Shown here: positions 9,075 through 63,626 of the stretch, in pieces
Layout: each line of letters starts with the position of its first letter
How positions within the stretch are numbered: position 1 is the first letter of the stretch
IMG/VR virus record: IMGVR_UViG_3300028025_004186
Location: 1-64,000 of that record
DNA length: 64,000 bases
Reading direction: 5' to 3' (one strand)
Source of the DNA: a virus
Notes under the pieces: model-generated
Seen by the model: the letters and a program-made list of their open reading frames with translations, nothing else
Database searches by the model: none
What the model was told of the DNA's origin: nothing
Translations under genes and position numbers: made by a program

Positions 9075-12000
9075 ATGAACATTGATGAACTTGACAACTT
9101 TAACCTTGATGATGCAATAAGATTCCACAACCAGCTAAACCCTGGTTTGTGGGACCAAAAAGAGCATTTACGACCCGAAGTGCGCGAAGCATTGTTGCGT
9201 ATTGCTGATGACTTTCGCGAGTTCCTGGGCGTACAAGATCTTCAAGTCAAAGACATTACTATAAGTGGCAGCAACGCCGCTTACACCTATACCCCCCACA
9301 GCGACATTGATCTACATCTGGTAGTTGACATACCCGAGTTGTATGATCCGGTGTATCGTGAACTGTTCAATGCCAAGAAGTATGAATACAATGACCGTCA
9401 CAACATACGTGTTCGTGATGCTGATGTAGAGTTGTATGTGCAGCCCAGTGATGACACACATCACAGTCAGGGCATTTATTCAATCAAAGACAATAAATGG
9501 ATTCAGGTACCACGACGTCGTAAAGCCACAGTGGATGACCTTGCAGTGCGCCACAAGTACGAAGACCTAGTGGCACGTATTGATCAAGCCATCAAAGACA
9601 GCAACAATGAATCTGCTGCTGCGTTGATGAAAAAAATACGCAACATGCGTCAGACTGGACTAGATCAACACGGCGAGTTTGGTGCAGAAAATCTTGCGTT
9701 CAAGATGTTGCGCTCACAAGGGTATATTAAAAAGTTATCTGATGCAGTGGCAGCAGCCAAGGATCGTGAGCTAAGTCTTAAAGAACGTAAGAAACCCAAA
9801 AAGAAAAAACGCTATGGATATGGTGGCTATTGGTATCCTGGCTTCAGTTGGGGCGACAGCAGCGGATCGTCTGAAGGCGGTGACGGTGGTGGCGGCGGCG
9901 AGTCTGTGCGTGAAGATGCCGGCAGTACCTGGGATGGAGTAAGTCCCACCACTTGCATGTTTACCAACGAAGCTGACAGTGAAGACAGTCGTCGTGACAT
10001 CATAAAGAAGTTTGCCGGACTGTGCGCACAACATTTAAAACTTAAAAAAATTCCTCGTATCATATTGAAAAAGACTCCGCAGTGGAGTGAGGAAACTGGA
10101 AGCTTTGGCCAATACCAGCCAGATGAACATACACTGATCTTGAGTTTGCCAGGACGTCACATACTTGACGTGCTGCGCACCATGGCACATGAACTAACTC
10201 ATGCACAACAAGAAGAACGTGTGGGACTGCCAGTGGGTGCAGGCGACACTGGATCACCCTGGGAAAACGAAGCCAATGCTCGTGCTGGTATTCTCATGCG
10301 TCACTTTGCTGAACGTCATCCCGAATACTTCAGCAATGTCAGCATAGCCGAAGCCAGTGGTTATATTCCTACTCGAGCACAAGCCCGAGATCCTAGATTC
10401 AGCATGGCTCTGACTGCGGACATCCAACCTGGTGAACTGGGTCGTCAGGCCAACAAGCTGGGATTACAAACAGACTCACAAGGGCGTCCAGCACTCCTAA
10501 TGAAGAGTCTGGCTCGTCAGTTGCGTGAATACAAAGAAACACCGCGTAAAAAGAGCCTGGTGATATTTGACATTGATGATACCTTGTTACATACCACTGC
10601 CAAAATCAGAGTTGTGAGTCGTGGACGTGTGGTGCGTGAACTCACCAATCAACAGTTCAATCATTATAAACTGCAGCCCGATGAAGAGTTTGACTTTGGC
10701 GAATTTAGAAATGCTGAGAAGTTCAATCGCGAAAGCGAGCCCATCAAGCCCATGGTTCGCAAACTAAAAACTATATTGATCAACTCGCCTGACAGCGATG
10801 TGATCATGCTCACAGCACGAGCAGATTTTGATGACAAAGAATTATTTTTAAAAACATTCCGTGATCTTGGCATAGACATGAGTCGTGTGCATGTACATCG
10901 TGCTGGTAACTTGCCTGGTGATGCCATCCCTGCAGAAAAGAAAGCAGTATGGGTTCGCAAATATCTCAACACTGATCGTTATGACCATGTGAGACTGTAT
11001 GATGACTCTGTGACCAACCTCACTGTGTTCAAAGATCTACGTCAGGAATATCCTGGCGTGGACTTCCGTGCAATCTATGTTGGCCCTGAAGGCACAACCA
11101 AGCCCATAGAAGAAGATGAAGAATCTTATGAAATTGACGATGGCAATGATCCACCAGGACCAGAGTCACCGCCCCAGTTCCCCTCGGGTACTGTCAAGGT
11201 AGATGTGTCAGATGTGTATGATTGGTACAAACTAGGCCAAGGCATATCTGACATTGATGACATGAACAAGAAAGATTTTGGCCAAGGACCACCCAGCACT
11301 GTGTTGGCGTTTGGTTCTGAAGATCTGGAACATCAATACATCAAAGCCTTGAAATCTCTGGGATTGCCTGTGCATGATCTTGATGAACCCGGCGAAGAAG
11401 ACCTTGATGAATCTGCTGGCGTTGACTTGTTTGAAATCAACATGAGCCCCAGCAATCTTCGGAAGATGGCTGCCAAGACTGGCGCCATAGCCGGCATGGA
11501 ATTTGAAATGTATGTGCCCGGTGCTGCCGAAGCCGACGAAGATGAATATGGATCTGAGCCAGACTATGAAATGGACGAAAGTTTTCCAACTGGTCGTGGA
11601 TATCAAAGCGAGGTCATAGATTTCTTTAGAGGTGGCGATAATGGCAGTCCTAGAAGCACAATTCAACGTGCGCTTGATGTCTTAAGTGAAGATTACTGGT
11701 CATGGAAAGACGAAAACTTTGAGGAATGGTTAAATGACAATGATACATTGCTAGACTACTATCTCAGAGAAGAACTTCCTCAGGAAGATGATGAAAGCGA
11801 CGACCAATACACAGAACGATTGGGCAGCGACGATGAAGAAGTTCGGCAGGCACAAGATCGGGCCATGGATCGGGTGCGTGAAGAACACCAAAACGAAGAT
11901 CAATTTGAAGAATTTTTACAAGACGCCGACATCAGATCCATGGCCGACTTTGGTAGCAATTACGACGTAGAATGGCCTTATTATAACTACCCTGAAAGCA

Positions 12001-14033
12001 GAGGTGGTAGTATAGACATCGACGATGTCGCCAGCGACTTTCAATCAGCTATTGGTCGCAGAGTGACCACAGGCGGATATCACAGTGGTGCCAGCTCACA
12101 AACCAACAACTATCGTGTAGAAACAGACAGCAGTCTTAGCGATCCTGCCAATCCCGAAGACGGTGGCTTGGAGTTTATCAGTCCTCCACTGCCCTTGGAT
12201 GAAATGTTGTCAGATCTAGACAAGGTAGTTAAATGGGCGCAGCGCAACGACTGTTACACCAACGATACCACCGGCTTGCACATGAATGTCAGTGTTCCTG
12301 GCTTTGAACTCAGCAAACTTGACTATGTTAAGTTGGCTATATTCCTGGGCGATGAATATGTGTTGGATCAGTTTGGTCGTGCTGGTAATACCTACTGCGC
12401 CAGTGCCATGGAAAACATTAGAAAGATTGCTCGAACCAATCCTGACAAAGTCAAAACTATGTTGCAACAGATGCAGGGTAATCTCAGTGCCATGGCATCA
12501 AAGATTGTACACACCGGCACCACAAACAAATATACCAGTATCAACACCAAAGATGGTTACATTGAGTTTCGCAGTCCCGGCGGTGATTGGCTAGACGAAT
12601 ATGCCAACAACGAAGATAAAATCAACAATACCTTGCTGCGTTTTACAGTGGCATTGGACATTGCCATGAAGCCTGAGTTGTACAGACAAGAGTACATGAA
12701 GAAGTTGTACAAGACTCTGTCCCAGGGCGAGAGCGATGACACTATTCAATTCTTTGCACGTTATGCTGCTGGTGACTTGCCACAGTCAGCCCTGAAGAGT
12801 TTTGTCAAGCAAGCGCAAATACAGCGTAAAGCTAAAAAACTACTTCCTGGCGCAATCAAAGGGCAACAATTAATTAGATGGCAGGCCACTTCAGGAGCAG
12901 CTACCGGTACTGTTGTGGCACGTACCGAAGAGGAAGCTAGAAAGAAAGCTGCTGTCAATATTGGTATTCCTTTCACTGATCGTGCCATAGACACCATGAA
13001 CATACAGCCCTTGGATCTTTATACCGGACCTGTTAATCAATACAATATCATCAGAGACGATAGTGGGTTTGACCTTGGCGCTTTTGAAGGTATTGATGAA
13101 CGCGATGCTATCACAAACTTCCGAGTGCAAAAACCACAGTGGAGCAACACTGATGTAACTGCTCGATTAGTAACATCAACTCCAACTCCTCCAGATTATC
13201 CAGCAGCGACGAGCAATACCCCAGGTTCGTGGACCATTATGAATCAATCAACTCGTAATATGTTACAAGGTGTTGGTGGCACATTCATTTATGCCTCTCG
13301 TGCTGCACGGGAGATAGCCCAAGATAACAATATTCGTCATGCAGAGATCCGTATCATAAACACCGACAATGGTCAGGTCTTTGACATTGACGGAAATCCT
13401 GCTAGATACGGCACAGAATCAAATACTCGCGGTGGTGGATTTGCCCGAGCACCACACACCAGCATATATCAAGTGGTTGATAATAGAGACGGGCAAATAA
13501 TATTACGCGGCGCAACACGAACTTTTGCATACACGGTTGAAATGACCAACATATACATTGGTACTCCTAGATATAACCTTACCCCTGAAGATATTAGAAT
13601 TGTTGATCTTAATACCAACACTGCCTATAAAATAGATGGTTCACCTGCTAATGCATCTGCACCAGCAGCACAAACAGAACAACTTTATAATGTTAGATGG
13701 ACAGATGAAAATGGCGAGCACGACGTAAATCGTAGAGCCCCAAATGCCAATGCTGCCATGGAAGATGTTCGTAACAGTTTAGAAAGCGGTGGATTTAGAG
13801 TGGCCTCTATAGAAGCCAATCCCATAGGACAGACACAAGGTCAAGCACAAGGATCGGACAGTTTACCATCAGGGCAGGCTCGTTGGTTGATACTGGATCG
13901 CAATGATCGTGAAGTTTATTCGTTTGTAGGTAGTACAGCACAACGTGACGCCAATGATATTGCCAGGAACTGGCTAACTGCCAATGCTCAAGATGGACAA
14001 GGGCCTTTTACTGTGGTGCCGGTGTCAAGATGA
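9075..14033 (+). CDS. Giant multi-enzyme protein: nucleotidyltransferase, metalloprotease, HAD phosphatase, amidoligase-like, repeats
   Basis: A 1652-residue protein. Residues about 1-250 hold a Pol-beta-type nucleotidyltransferase (GS motif then HSDIDLHLV near 64-83). A Gly-rich linker near 255-275 follows. A zinc metalloprotease-like segment has HELTH at about 372-376 with a downstream NEANAR. A HAD-type phosphatase (VIFDIDDTLL near 495-505, later MLTAR and DDS) follows. An amidoligase-like domain spans about 800-1240 (GMEFEMYVPG, GGLEFISPPLP, GLHMNVSVPG, IEFRSPGGDW). The region from about 1270 to the end has about six imperfect beta-beta-alpha repeats. No capsid-targeting start is seen, but the array of such proteins begins directly downstream with a 4-base overlap. 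The combined action is unknown; a virion-associated modifying machine is plausible. Confidence 0.8.
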   Translation: MNIDELDNFNLDDAIRFHNQLNPGLWDQKEHLRPEVREALLRIADDFREFLGVQDLQVKDITISGSNAAYTYTPHSDIDLHLVVDIPELYDPVYRELFNAKKYEYNDRHNIRVRDADVELYVQPSDDTHHSQGIYSIKDNKWIQVPRRRKATVDDLAVRHKYEDLVARIDQAIKDSNNESAAALMKKIRNMRQTGLDQHGEFGAENLAFKMLRSQGYIKKLSDAVAAAKDRELSLKERKKPKKKKRYGYGGYWYPGFSWGDSSGSSEGGDGGGGGESVREDAGSTWDGVSPTTCMFTNEADSEDSRRDIIKKFAGLCAQHLKLKKIPRIILKKTPQWSEETGSFGQYQPDEHTLILSLPGRHILDVLRTMAHELTHAQQEERVGLPVGAGDTGSPWENEANARAGILMRHFAERHPEYFSNVSIAEASGYIPTRAQARDPRFSMALTADIQPGELGRQANKLGLQTDSQGRPALLMKSLARQLREYKETPRKKSLVIFDIDDTLLHTTAKIRVVSRGRVVRELTNQQFNHYKLQPDEEFDFGEFRNAEKFNRESEPIKPMVRKLKTILINSPDSDVIMLTARADFDDKELFLKTFRDLGIDMSRVHVHRAGNLPGDAIPAEKKAVWVRKYLNTDRYDHVRLYDDSVTNLTVFKDLRQEYPGVDFRAIYVGPEGTTKPIEEDEESYEIDDGNDPPGPESPPQFPSGTVKVDVSDVYDWYKLGQGISDIDDMNKKDFGQGPPSTVLAFGSEDLEHQYIKALKSLGLPVHDLDEPGEEDLDESAGVDLFEINMSPSNLRKMAAKTGAIAGMEFEMYVPGAAEADEDEYGSEPDYEMDESFPTGRGYQSEVIDFFRGGDNGSPRSTIQRALDVLSEDYWSWKDENFEEWLNDNDTLLDYYLREELPQEDDESDDQYTERLGSDDEEVRQAQDRAMDRVREEHQNEDQFEEFLQDADIRSMADFGSNYDVEWPYYNYPESRGGSIDIDDVASDFQSAIGRRVTTGGYHSGASSQTNNYRVETDSSLSDPANPEDGGLEFISPPLPLDEMLSDLDKVVKWAQRNDCYTNDTTGLHMNVSVPGFELSKLDYVKLAIFLGDEYVLDQFGRAGNTYCASAMENIRKIARTNPDKVKTMLQQMQGNLSAMASKIVHTGTTNKYTSINTKDGYIEFRSPGGDWLDEYANNEDKINNTLLRFTVALDIAMKPELYRQEYMKKLYKTLSQGESDDTIQFFARYAAGDLPQSALKSFVKQAQIQRKAKKLLPGAIKGQQLIRWQATSGAATGTVVARTEEEARKKAAVNIGIPFTDRAIDTMNIQPLDLYTGPVNQYNIIRDDSGFDLGAFEGIDERDAITNFRVQKPQWSNTDVTARLVTSTPTPPDYPAATSNTPGSWTIMNQSTRNMLQGVGGTFIYASRAAREIAQDNNIRHAEIRIINTDNGQVFDIDGNPARYGTESNTRGGGFARAPHTSIYQVVDNRDGQIILRGATRTFAYTVEMTNIYIGTPRYNLTPEDIRIVDLNTNTAYKIDGSPANASAPAAQTEQLYNVRWTDENGEHDVNRRAPNANAAMEDVRNSLESGGFRVASIEANPIGQTQGQAQGSDSLPSGQARWLILDRNDREVYSFVGSTAQRDANDIARNWLTANAQDGQGPFTVVPVSR

Positions 14034-57793: not shown

Positions 57794-57968
57794 GATTAAA
57801 ACGATTGAGTGCGAATCGTCCCGCAAGGGTTCAGCAAGGGTTTGATGCAGTAATATGACTTCGGCATCATGTAATAGTCAGTTCCTTGTTAGCATTAGAT
57901 CAGATGGTAGGCAACTACCCAATGGTTGTAGGTGACGATGGGCTTTATAGGAACCTTCACTTTTTTAT
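57794..57968 (+). ncRNA. Structured non-coding stretch A between tRNA-Cys and tRNA-Glu
   Basis: There is no coding frame of note here. Several stems can form: ACGATT/AATCGT (57801-57806 with 57814-57819), TGATGC/GCATCA (57843-57848 with 57864-57869), and an outer GTTCC/GGAAC (57881-57885 with 57950-57954) enclosing GGTAG-GCAA-CTACC, a hairpin with a GNRA tetraloop (57906-57919). The density of pairing suggests a functional RNA. It matches no family I know. Confidence 0.45.
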
Positions 57969-58043
57969 GCACCGTTCATCTAGTGGTTAGGATACCGCCC
58001 TTTCACGGCGGGTACACGAGTTCGAATCTCGTACGGTGTACCA
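57969..58043 (+). tRNA. tRNA-Glu (TTC)
   Basis: The acceptor GCACCGT pairs with ACGGTGT. The anticodon stem CCGCC/GGCGG holds the loop CTTTCAC, giving anticodon TTC. The T loop is TTCGAAT. CCA is encoded (58041-58043). Confidence 0.93.
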
Positions 58044-58345
58044 TATTAAAGCACATTACGGCCAAGGTCTAGAGATAACTTCATACTACGCCGTGACAGG
58101 ATATAGAAGCAGACCTAAACCTGTCGTATAGTGTGTTTTAATATGGTAGAGTCTACCAAAAGAACGTTCCAGCGTCACTGGATACTCTGACCCAGAGGAT
58201 GAGAAGTGGTGTGACAACCACGGGTGGTACACTTCAAACCGAAAGTGCGCTGGCAATGCGAGAACGGTCCCGGTCGGGGAGCGGGTGGAGGCTGTAGAAG
58301 TATTCCCCTTGAAAGAGGACATGTTTACTGATGCAGTATAATTAC
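58044..58345 (+). ncRNA. Large structured non-coding RNA B after tRNA-Glu
   Basis: Two structured parts. Part 1 (58043-58144) is a three-way junction: a 13-bp closing stem (58043-58055 with 58132-58144, one G-U), arm 2 TTACGGC/GCCGTGA (58056-58062 with 58090-58096) and arm 3 ACAGG/CCTGT (to 58124). The loops of arms 2 and 3 contain AGGTCT (58065-58070) and AGACCT (58111-58116), which are fully complementary and could kiss. Part 2 has an outer stem CGTTC/GAACG and CCAGCG/CGCTGG (58165-58174 with 58248-58266) enclosing three hairpins: CTCTG-CAGAG, GTGGT-ACCAC and CACTT-AAGTG. No known family is recognised. Confidence 0.55.
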
Positions 58346-58386
58346 CGCCGCGGGACGCAGAGCATTTTACTTTTAAAGGAAATATC

Positions 58387-58614
58387 ATGGGCCGTTATAT
58401 AACTATATCACAAGAAGTTGATGTTGATATTGATATGGAAGACTTTGACACCAGCGAACTAGTTCAAGAACTTGAGCGTCGCGGAGCAGGTGCCACAGAC
58501 TACGGCGATGGTAAAGACATATTAAGAGCTATCTACGAAAAACGTAGACTAGGCAAAGATTATCAAGCAGACCTAGACCAACTTATCTGGATGGGCCTAG
58601 GTAAAACATTATAA
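58387..58614 (+). CDS. Small acidic hypothetical protein (75 aa)
   Basis: A 75-residue protein, very acidic at the start (VDVDIDMEDFDTSELVQEL) and basic in the middle. An AAAGGA site precedes the ATG. It stands among tRNA genes directly after the structured RNA. Unrecognised. Confidence 0.6.
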   Translation: MGRYITISQEVDVDIDMEDFDTSELVQELERRGAGATDYGDGKDILRAIYEKRRLGKDYQADLDQLIWMGLGKTL

Positions 58615-60137: not shown

Positions 60138-60198
60138 TTACTTGTAAATGTGCCGACAGGGCATTTACAAAATCTTGCTTAATTCAAAGGAGAAAACA

Positions 60199-62076
60199 AT
60201 GAGCACAATTATAGGTATTGACCTCGGAACCACCAACTCATGCGTGGCTATTGTAGAAAACGGAACCCCAAAAGTAATTGAAAATTCAGAAGGCGCACGT
60301 ACTACGCCATCAATCGTCGCTTACACTGACGCCGAAGTGTTGGTTGGCGCACCAGCCAAACGTCAGGCAGTCACAAACCCCAAGAATACAATCCATGCAG
60401 CCAAGCGGTTGATTGGACGTAAGTTCAAAGAACAGGCTGTGCAAAAAGACCTTGATCTAATGCCATACAAAATCATGGCGGCCGCCAATGGTGATGCCTG
60501 GGTTGAAGCCAATGGAAAAGAACTAGCACCACCGCAAATTTCAGCAGAAGTATTGCGTAAGATGAAAAAGACTGCGGAAGACTATCTTGGTCACGAAGTC
60601 ACACAGGCCGTCATCACAGTACCCGCTTACTTCAATGACAGCCAGCGTCAAGCCACCAAAGACGCTGGTAAGATTGCTGGCCTGGAAGTGCTGCGTATTA
60701 TCAATGAACCAACAGCGGCTGCGCTGGCATATGGGGTAGACAAACAAGACAAAGTGGATCGCAAGGTTGCTGTGTATGACTTAGGTGGCGGCACGTTTGA
60801 CGTCAGTATTATTGAGATTGCCAATGTTGATGGCGACAAGCAAATTGAAGTGTTGTCAACAAACGGTGACACATTTCTAGGCGGAGAAGACTTTGATAAT
60901 CGTATCATGGACTATCTTGTTTCTGAATTTAAAAAGGATTCTGGTGTTGACCTCAGTAAAGATGTCATGGCACTACAACGTCTAAAAGAAGCAGCAGAGC
61001 GCACCAAGATTGAACTATCAAACAGCGCACAAACAGATGTAAACTTGCCGTATGTCACTGCTGATGCATCAGGTCCTAAACATTTAAATGTCAAGATGAC
61101 TCGTGCCAAGTTGGAAAGTCTTGTTGAAGACTTGATTCAACGCAGCCTAGAGCCATGCCGTCAGGCCATGACAGATGCCAAAGTATCGGCCGCAGACATT
61201 GACGAAGTTATTCTTGTGGGCGGCCAGACACGTATGCCCAAGGTGCAAGAAGCAGTGGAAAAGCTGTTTGGTAAAGCACCACGACGTGATGTCAATCCAG
61301 ACGAAGCAGTGGCTGCAGGTGCTGCCTTGCAAGGTGCTGTGCTAGGCGGTGAACGCAAAGACCTACTGTTGCTTGATGTAACACCATTGAGTCTTGGCAT
61401 TGAAACACAGGGTGGAGTGTTTACTAAGTTGATCAATAAGAACACCACTATTCCCACAAAGCATAGCCAAGTGTTCTCCACTGCTGACGACAATCAACCT
61501 GCTGTGACTATCAAAGTTGCGCAAGGCGAACGTGAACTATTCCAATACAACAAGTCATTGGGTGAATTTAATCTTGAAGGCATTGCACCAGCACGTCGTG
61601 GTGTGCCACAGATTGAAGTTACACTAGATATTGATGCCAATGGTATCATGCACGTATCAGCCAAAGACAAAAACACCGGCAAAGAAAACAAGATCACTAT
61701 CAAATCCAACTCAGGGCTAAGTGATGCTGAAGTTGAACAGATGATCAAGGATGCTGAACTCAATGCTGAAGCCGACAAGAAGCAACGTGAATCTATTGAA
61801 ACACGCAATCAAGCCGAATCACAGTTACACATGATTCGTGCCGAACTCAAGGAAGTGGAATCGCAGTTAACTGAGGAACAAAAAACCTCTGTCAACACTG
61901 CAATCACTGCGGTTGAAACTGCTGTGCAAGGCGATGACTTGGAAGCAATTAAATCTAGTCTGGATGAATTATTCAAGGCCGCTGCTCCGGTCTTTGAGGC
62001 CAAAGCCAAAGCATCTGAGCCCGCAGAACCTGTAGATGAAACAGTGGTTGACGCTGACTTCAAAGAAAGCAAATAA
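60199..62076 (+). CDS. dnaK: Hsp70 chaperone DnaK
   Basis: A full DnaK of 625 residues, started at the ATG at 60199 after CAAAGGAGA. The ATPase domain has [56 protein letters not shown] and [10 protein letters not shown]. The [16 protein letters not shown] linker and substrate-binding domain follow, and the helical lid ends with a DADFKESK tail. Sequence style is close to betaproteobacterial DnaK, suggesting capture from a host of that group. With phage DnaJ it could fold virion proteins or protect replication; GrpE would come from the host. Confidence 0.97.
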
Positions 62077-62250: not shown

Positions 62251-63093
62251 TTGAAAAAAATATTACTAATAGTTATTGCATTGTTATGTTTTGTCAGCAC
62301 TGCTGAAGCAAAAAAACGTCACCATCATCATCCACATCGCGCAGCAGTTAAAAAAGCAAAACATCATCCTGTTCGCACTGCAAATCCCATCAGTGTATGG
62401 GCATATGACATTAAGACACAATCACCCATTGTTGGGCATGGCACACAACTTGTTAGGCCCATGGCTAGTTTAACCAAGTTAATGACTGCCATGGTAAGTC
62501 TTGACCACAACAACAATCTTCAACAGACAATGTATTATCAAGGTCGGCCAGTGACTAGAGAACGATTATTTCAACGCCTGTTGATTCGCAGCGACAACAA
62601 CGTAGCAGAATTTCTAAGTCAAGATTATCCAGGTGGCCGTACTGCATTTCTCAATGCCATGAATCACAAGGCATCACGGTTGGCTATGTTGAACACACAC
62701 TTTGATGACCCATCGGGTCGTATTCAAACCAATGTCAGCACTGCTGAGGATGTTGGTAGAATGTTGGAAGCAGCACACGGATATCAAATCATACGTAGGA
62801 TTTCCACTTACCAAGATTTAGAAACCACCACAGTGGTACATCGTCGACACAAAACCTACACCAGCGTCAGTCATACCCCCAATACCAACACCATGGTACT
62901 GTCGGCTTTTCCTGAAGTAGTTGTAAGCAAAACTGGGTTTACCAATCCAGCTGGTTATTGCGTGGGAGTAGTGGTTGAACAAAACGGTCGCACTTATGCC
63001 GTGGTCATTATGGGTGCTCAAAATCGTTATCAAAGATTTGACAAAGTAAAAGAAGTCATGCATAATCATATTGTAACGGCTTCAAACATATAA
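62251..63093 (+). CDS. Exported D-alanyl-D-alanine carboxypeptidase-like protein (peptidase S11)
   Basis: A 280-residue protein with a Sec signal peptide (residues 1-20, ending STAEA), then a basic His/Lys stretch (KKRHHHHPHRAAVKK) and a penicillin-binding-protein domain of S11 type. The three catalytic motifs are visible: S-L-T-K at 73-76, S-D-N at 114-116 and K-T-G at 227-229. It should trim or cut cross-links of peptidoglycan in the periplasm (PBP7-like). The start is the TTG at 62251 after GAGGT. It may alter the envelope during infection, aid lysis or block other phages. Confidence 0.9.
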   Translation: MKKILLIVIALLCFVSTAEAKKRHHHHPHRAAVKKAKHHPVRTANPISVWAYDIKTQSPIVGHGTQLVRPMASLTKLMTAMVSLDHNNNLQQTMYYQGRPVTRERLFQRLLIRSDNNVAEFLSQDYPGGRTAFLNAMNHKASRLAMLNTHFDDPSGRIQTNVSTAEDVGRMLEAAHGYQIIRRISTYQDLETTTVVHRRHKTYTSVSHTPNTNTMVLSAFPEVVVSKTGFTNPAGYCVGVVVEQNGRTYAVVIMGAQNRYQRFDKVKEVMHNHIVTASNI

Positions 63094-63353: not shown

Positions 63354-63626
63354 AAAGGCATTCTGGACGTGGGTTCGACTCCCACCTGGTCCACCAGAAA
63401 CATATTTGCAGACCGTGCGACTCTTTGTGAAAAGGACCGTACTGCAGGACGAAGTGTGTTTCTGATGGGCCAGACCTGGCTTCGACAGGGTGAGATAGCA
63501 AAGAAGGCAACACGCCAGGCGATGGACGTAATCCAAGCAAACTAGTAACTGCAAACGCAGCTAACGACGAGGTTTTCGCTCTCGCAGCGTAATCTCCGGG
63601 GCAACTATGCCTTGTAACCCAAAATA
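63354..63626 (+). ncRNA. ssrA: Permuted two-piece tmRNA (ssrA)
   Basis: The acceptor piece comes first: T arm GTGGG-TTCGACT-CCCAC (63369-63385), then CTGGTCC, A and an encoded CCA ending at 63396. The coding piece starts with GGGCCAG at 63467, which pairs with CTGGTCC over 7 bp with a G3-U70 pair, the alanine identity mark. It continues with the conserved TGGCTTCGAC, and the tag reading frame is 63551-63592: GCA AAC GCA GCT AAC GAC GAG, then GTT to GCG and TAA, giving ANAANDEVFALAA. The intervening 70 bases (63397-63466) extend the acceptor stem (CAGAAACA with TGTTTCTG) and should be cut out. Exact 5' and 3' ends are approximate. Confidence 0.9.

Follow-up and report, generated by a model that had tools for sequence, protein, structure and literature searches.

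The structured RNA that lies directly behind the tRNA-Glu gene of this phage is built on a stem that, on the basis of sequence comparison, is shown to be homologous to the hairpin in the intervening sequence (IVS) of betaproteobacterial permuted pre-tmRNAs; transfer may have gone from host to phage or the reverse. The reading that is put forward here, and that is considered fairly likely, is that a tmRNA-type IVS hairpin here serves as a platform on which structured-RNA payloads can be exchanged; in this case it is placed behind the tRNA-Glu CCA and probably excised during maturation. The window, i.e., the whole stretch of 64,000 nucleotides that was analysed, belongs to an IMG/VR virus contig of 65 kb and covers most of it. 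Its RNAs comprise tRNA-Cys, Glu, Ser, Trp, Arg and Gly as well as a permuted tmRNA (ARAGORN, Rfam).

The tRNA-Glu(TTC) gene occupies positions 57969–58043 of the plus strand, which also carries the stem, the payload and the second copy of the platform described below (ARAGORN and Rfam). Its CCA (58041–58043) is situated inside the 5′ arm of closing stem P1, which consists of 20 pairs between TACCATATTAAAGCACATTA (58039–58058) and TAGTGTGTTTTAATATGGTA (58129–58148) and contains a conserved U.G wobble, T58056.G58131. P1 encloses a two-armed domain of exactly 72 nt, called payload b (58058–58129). Arm P2 (58059–58093) is formed by CGGC (58059–58062) and GCCG (58090–58093) with a 27-nt loop, and arm P3 (58095–58125) by GACAGG (58095–58100) and CCTGTC (58120–58125) with a 19-nt loop. 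Immediately 3′ of tRNA-Glu, a three-way junction forms in the fold of 58033–58154, the energy of which is -40.9 kcal/mol; shuffled versions give -24.9 ± 3.3 kcal/mol, none of 200 being as stable (z = -4.8). The inner 72 nt folded alone reach a z of -2.2. The three-way junction with two arms that had been predicted behind tRNA-Glu is thus borne out. The original prediction of a 13-bp closing stem and a span of 58043–58144 holds for the existence of the structure, but the stem measures 19–20 bp, starts inside the tRNA with the CCA included and runs past both ends of that span. The predicted absence of a coding frame agrees with the ORFs found in the element region, which are of chance length only. 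A coding function was rejected, the antisense 100-aa ORF at 58086–58388 extending into a separately conserved non-coding element. The element behind tRNA-Glu is real, and it is a non-coding RNA that is both structured and conserved.

DNA-pattern scans identified the 72-nt domain in 17 further IMG/VR contigs and, among GTDB genomes, on a single contig, which belongs to a Lake Pavin MAG. That contig (L168:14-213) carries two tandem IVS-type hairpins with near-identical stems and no tRNA between them; it probably comes from a phage and was wrongly binned with a Planctomycetia genome. Searches of INPHARED and PLSDB for payload b returned nothing beyond chance-level short matches, and two other payloads of the family are likewise absent from isolated phages. 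No intermediate relatives of payload b were found either, as the matches in 49 records score either above 127 bits, being payload b, or less than 42 bits, where just the stem matches.

Among 13 distinct homologous sequences, 12 pairs are changed on both sides, compared to a mean of 4.3 in shuffles (0 of 500 as high) and at most 6 in slid controls. Ten of these pairs belong to P1 and two to P3, in which C-G alternates with T-A and the outer pair varies between A-T, G-T and G-C. These substitutions show P1 and P3 to be, as far as an alignment can tell, RNA helices under pairing constraint. P2 is nearly invariant and is intact in all homologues, with a single change to a U-G pair, which leaves it neutral with respect to covariation. 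The fourth pairing tested, a kissing contact between AGGTCT (58065–58070) and AGACCT (58111–58116), fares worse. The two segments of this putative loop–loop region (58065–58116), which includes further complementary segments CTTC (58079–58082) and GAAG (58106–58109), do exist as predicted. The core GGTC/GACC is invariant across the 13 homologues and is therefore uninformative, and L135, L136 and L137 have lost outer pairs with no compensatory change, which leaves 4–5 pairs. In addition, a 6-nt complement between two such loops arises in 5.3% of composition-preserving shuffles, and RNAalifold pairs the GGU of columns 31–33 inside its own arm, in competition with the kissing. The loop–loop pairing may form, but covariation does not support it.

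The link of the stem to permuted tmRNA is indicated by a second copy of the platform in the window, at 63397–63466, which forms the intervening sequence of the permuted tmRNA and carries a different payload (TGCAG...CGA). The stem of this copy, GAAACATATT (63397–63406) paired with AGTGTGTTTC (63453–63462), starts directly after the tmRNA CCA. The tmRNA intervening sequence is absent from mature tmRNA, the transcript being cut by tRNA-processing enzymes (PMC11915505). Plasmid-borne permuted tmRNAs of Cupriavidus read CCA-GAAGCACATT-GCACGGGC-AGTGCGCTTC-TGATGG or a close variant, with the same arms, the same U.G wobble and the same place right after the CCA as the phage stem. Covariance model R1, which was built from phage element b only, matches the Cupriavidus tmRNAs precisely at the intervening sequence (E-values of 1.5e-6 and 2e-5) and the Pandoraea version with an E-value of 0.005; the bacterial side of the comparison comprises three plasmid-borne tmRNAs and one Rfam consensus. 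This consensus, beta_tmRNA, has an IVS with a CAUU...aGUg signature, and the stem behind tRNA-Glu has the corresponding CAUU...AGUG, with U.G and U-A inner pairs, starting at the CCA end. The element itself follows tRNA-Glu and is not located between tmRNA pieces. A position between the 3′ and 5′ pieces of a tmRNA is seen for the copy at 63397–63466 and, with payload b, in L009 and L010. In phage tmRNAs the intervening site is occupied by payload b (L009/L010), payload c (L169/L171) or the TGCAG type (the window, L170 and L172). The permuted tmRNA of L203 (record G018) has an apparently minimal intervening sequence, with a few nucleotides between the acceptor CCA and the 5′ piece.

The stem is not restricted to payload b. 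The inner part of the 5′ arm of P1 is present in at least 120 IMG/VR contigs when the left arm CATATTNAAGCACATT is searched alone, the sizes given for the stem family being lower bounds. Of 134 left-arm matches in the loci compared, 82 have a right arm no more than 160 nt away with at least 14 of its 16 positions paired, compared to 0.25% in random sequence. AGTG, which keeps the U.G wobble, occurs in 70 of 79 unique members, these having been selected on the left arm, and another stem pair is G-T in 60 of the 79. A structural search without arm sequence yielded 117 unique stem elements, although it demanded ATT...AGT at the inner end and so cannot test those pairs. Forty of the 117 start exactly in a tRNA CCA, where approximately 0.5 would be expected by chance according to our own estimate, and 23 end at the next tRNA. 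The tRNA-linked elements share the orientation of their tRNA. In the phages concerned, all of them uncultivated and most represented by fragments, the stem follows tRNA CCAs, lies within permuted tmRNAs or forms tandem arrays. It encloses payloads of 18–133 nt in approximately 80 sequence clusters, 63 of which are singletons, and identical payload types recur behind different tRNAs. A description of such elements was not found in the open-access library that was searched.

Some members of the family show additional features. The payloads of L045, L041, L082 and L101 contain T-arm-like sequences (GGTTCGAATCC), which suggests that tRNA remnants have been captured within the stem. Kilobase-scale non-coding arrays of many structured modules are present at L043:11200-12900 and L129:1-1150 (minus strand), in which minihelices with NCCA ends precede IVS-type hairpins and tRNAs are scattered among them. 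In these arrays Rfam recognises tRNAs only, with a group I intron nearby at L043:13185-13378. Possibly each represents one giant RNA, or else an array of modules.

Further conserved elements flank the tRNA-Glu element. Just downstream of payload b, the non-coding element 58160–58372 (GTTCCAGCGTCACTGGATACTCTGACC...ATTACCGCCGCGGGACGCAGAGCA) is 74–94% identical in at least 10 other phage contigs and has no Rfam match; in several relatives its 3′ end continues directly into an IVS-type hairpin. On the other side, the element between tRNA-Cys and tRNA-Glu (57794–57968) is 97–98% identical in L003 and L004, and its 75-nt core is present in three tandem copies in L007 with a period of approximately 111 nt. 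Protein-coding genes of the window include a phage-encoded Hsp70 adjoining the tRNA cluster (60148–62076; Pfam E-value 4e-260), a D-Ala-D-Ala carboxypeptidase (62251–63093; PF00768) and a 1652-aa protein with an amidoligase_2 domain (9075–14033; PF12224, E-value 9e-8).

Payload b is found behind tRNA-Glu, tRNA-Lys and tRNA-Arg, within tmRNA or alone. In the 13 other loci compared it measures 72 nt without exception and is 89–99% identical to the window copy, whereas the 75 nt upstream are 47–92% identical. The phages concerned can be close or distant relatives, with DNA polymerases that are 96–97% (G001/G002), 79% (G009/G012) or only about 32–36% (G006/G013) identical to the one of the window; phages L008 and L015 are in the latter range. 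The same discordance is seen inside tmRNAs. Those of L178 and L184 are 90–93% identical and have unrelated intervening sequences, while those of the window and L178 are approximately 71% identical and have an intervening sequence that is 91% identical. Such comparisons indicate different histories for tmRNA bodies and payloads. In L003, an insertion of approximately 236 bp between payload b and the next element adds a second hairpin with the same stem, carrying payload c, and its junctions lie at the repeated right arms, as would be expected from homologous recombination between stems. Taken at the level of sequence, these cases show that payloads have been exchanged among tRNA, tmRNA and array sites and between distantly related phages. 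Recent spread, and not constraint, might account for part of the conservation of payload b.

In the mechanism that is proposed, the apical loop of the IVS hairpin would have been replaced by the 72-nt two-armed domain directly behind the tRNA-Glu CCA. The hairpin would be co-transcribed with tRNA-Glu, as the scanned region showed no terminator-like site on the strand of the tRNA; the hairpin was rejected as an intrinsic terminator of the tRNA operon, no U-run following it. The machinery for tRNA/tmRNA 3′-end maturation may then clear the hairpin as it clears the tmRNA IVS, with RNase P making the following 5′ end, an endonuclease cutting on or next to the stem, and subsequent trimming to the CCA. 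This removal would free the 3′ end of the tRNA and release the payload-bearing hairpin. A search of 30 records of these phages found no RNase III domain, which means that the enzyme would have to come from the host. Maturation of the 3′ end cannot be the sole role, as copies exist without an adjacent recognisable tRNA (L015, L135, L136, L137 and L168), and the tandem or tRNA-free copies (L135, L136, L137 and L168) favour a role for the payload itself. The invariant loops likewise suggest that the payload may work as a small RNA in its own right. A broader proposal, which is held only tentatively, is that large phages use the IVS hairpin as a socket for RNA cargo, i.e., for exchangeable, independently functional RNAs that are excised by the tRNA/tmRNA maturation machinery of the host during infection.

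The extreme diversity of the payloads, with 63 singletons among 80 clusters, could instead point to a mere processing spacer, in which the stem directs 3′-end cleavage and the payload is neutral filler exchanged by recombination between stems. Repeats of the stem would indeed readily seed homologous recombination, and in L003 the insertion sits between two right arms. Nevertheless, payload b retains its length, loops and arms next to diverging flanks, and the payload of the window tmRNA is more conserved than the surrounding tmRNA, which makes a mere spacer rather unlikely. Conserved ends around approximately 80 unrelated interiors and spread among distant phages would also fit a MITE-type mobile DNA element with 17-bp terminal inverted repeats that inserts behind tRNA genes, the RNA structure being a by-product; tRNA 3′ ends are classic insertion sites. 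This explanation is improbable, since the two arms differ consistently in a way that preserves G.U pairs (AGTG with U.G in 70/79, G-T elsewhere in 60/79) and change in a compensatory manner. In L135, for example, the arm, free of a tRNA, swaps CC/GG pairs for TT/AA together. Furthermore, tRNA-linked elements follow the orientation of their tRNA, and what corresponds to them in bacteria is a hairpin that intervenes in a precursor RNA.

The invariant loop nucleotides, the fixed length of 72 nt and the three-way junction with complementary loops are features that a riboswitch-like sensor could have, one that binds a ligand or protein and controls tRNA-Glu maturation via a loop–loop contact. However, the same domain lies behind Lys and Arg tRNAs, in tmRNA and alone, and is not tied to one gene, the loop–loop pairing is unsupported and no riboswitch family matches, so that such a switch appears very unlikely. 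An equally slim chance is given to a counter-defence decoy, in which diverse hairpins titrate host nucleases or RNA-guided defence systems that attack phage tRNAs or transcripts. Anticodon nucleases target tRNAs, and hypervariable, swappable structured cargo would suit an arms race, but the payload resembles no RNA family in Rfam. The IVS-derived platform for exchangeable payloads thus remains the preferred reading.

This reading gives an orphan RNA of phages a concrete counterpart in bacteria, and its function thereby becomes testable. The permuted-tmRNA IVS, which is usually viewed as a discarded linker, appears in uncultivated phages as a portable module whose payloads are of approximately 80 kinds. 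Should these be released and active, the tRNA arrays of phages would double as small-RNA factories, which would bear on the many tRNA genes of large phages; the platform-bearing relatives include contigs of 260–350 kb. Even as mere processing spacers, the hairpins would offer a route for the exchange of RNA modules between distant phages and constitute an unrecognised element class for genome annotation.

Several known RNA systems invite comparison. GOLLD and ROOL are structured RNAs of unknown role that are found near tRNA genes in phages. The structures of such ornate RNAs have been described (PMC12286853). The element of the window differs from them in being far smaller and in having a tmRNA-type stem with many unrelated payloads, and neither GOLLD, ROOL nor other ornate RNAs yield an Rfam model match. 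It shares with purine-riboswitch-like junctions a closing stem, two arms and complementary loops, but differs by the lack of a family match, the unsupported loop pairing and the occurrence in several gene contexts. As had been predicted, it does not match the cores of known riboswitch-type RNAs: no Rfam riboswitch or ribozyme, including the purine riboswitch, reaches its gathering score, and none appears in the region even at E<10. The suggested layout of a ligand-binding or RNase-resistant RNA is backed by no evidence towards either and is better explained by the permuted-tmRNA IVS hairpin. An integron attC site was set aside as well, the arm sequences differing from the attC core sites. Phage T4 produces two stable small RNAs, species 1 and 2, that are processed from its tRNA-cluster transcript. 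By their general description they resemble the present element as small RNAs of a phage tRNA transcript; they are not known as interchangeable payloads carried by a stem of tmRNA type. The closest counterpart is the permuted pre-tmRNA IVS hairpin (RF01850 / RF04321), with which the element shares the stem GAAGCACATT...AGTGYGCTTC, the U.G wobble and the start after the CCA. The Cupriavidus IVS lies between two tmRNA pieces and has approximately 10 bp and an 8-nt loop, whereas the element of the window lies behind tRNA-Glu and has a 20-bp stem with a 72-nt two-armed payload. The likeness extends to the phages' own tmRNAs, which also use the stem as their IVS.
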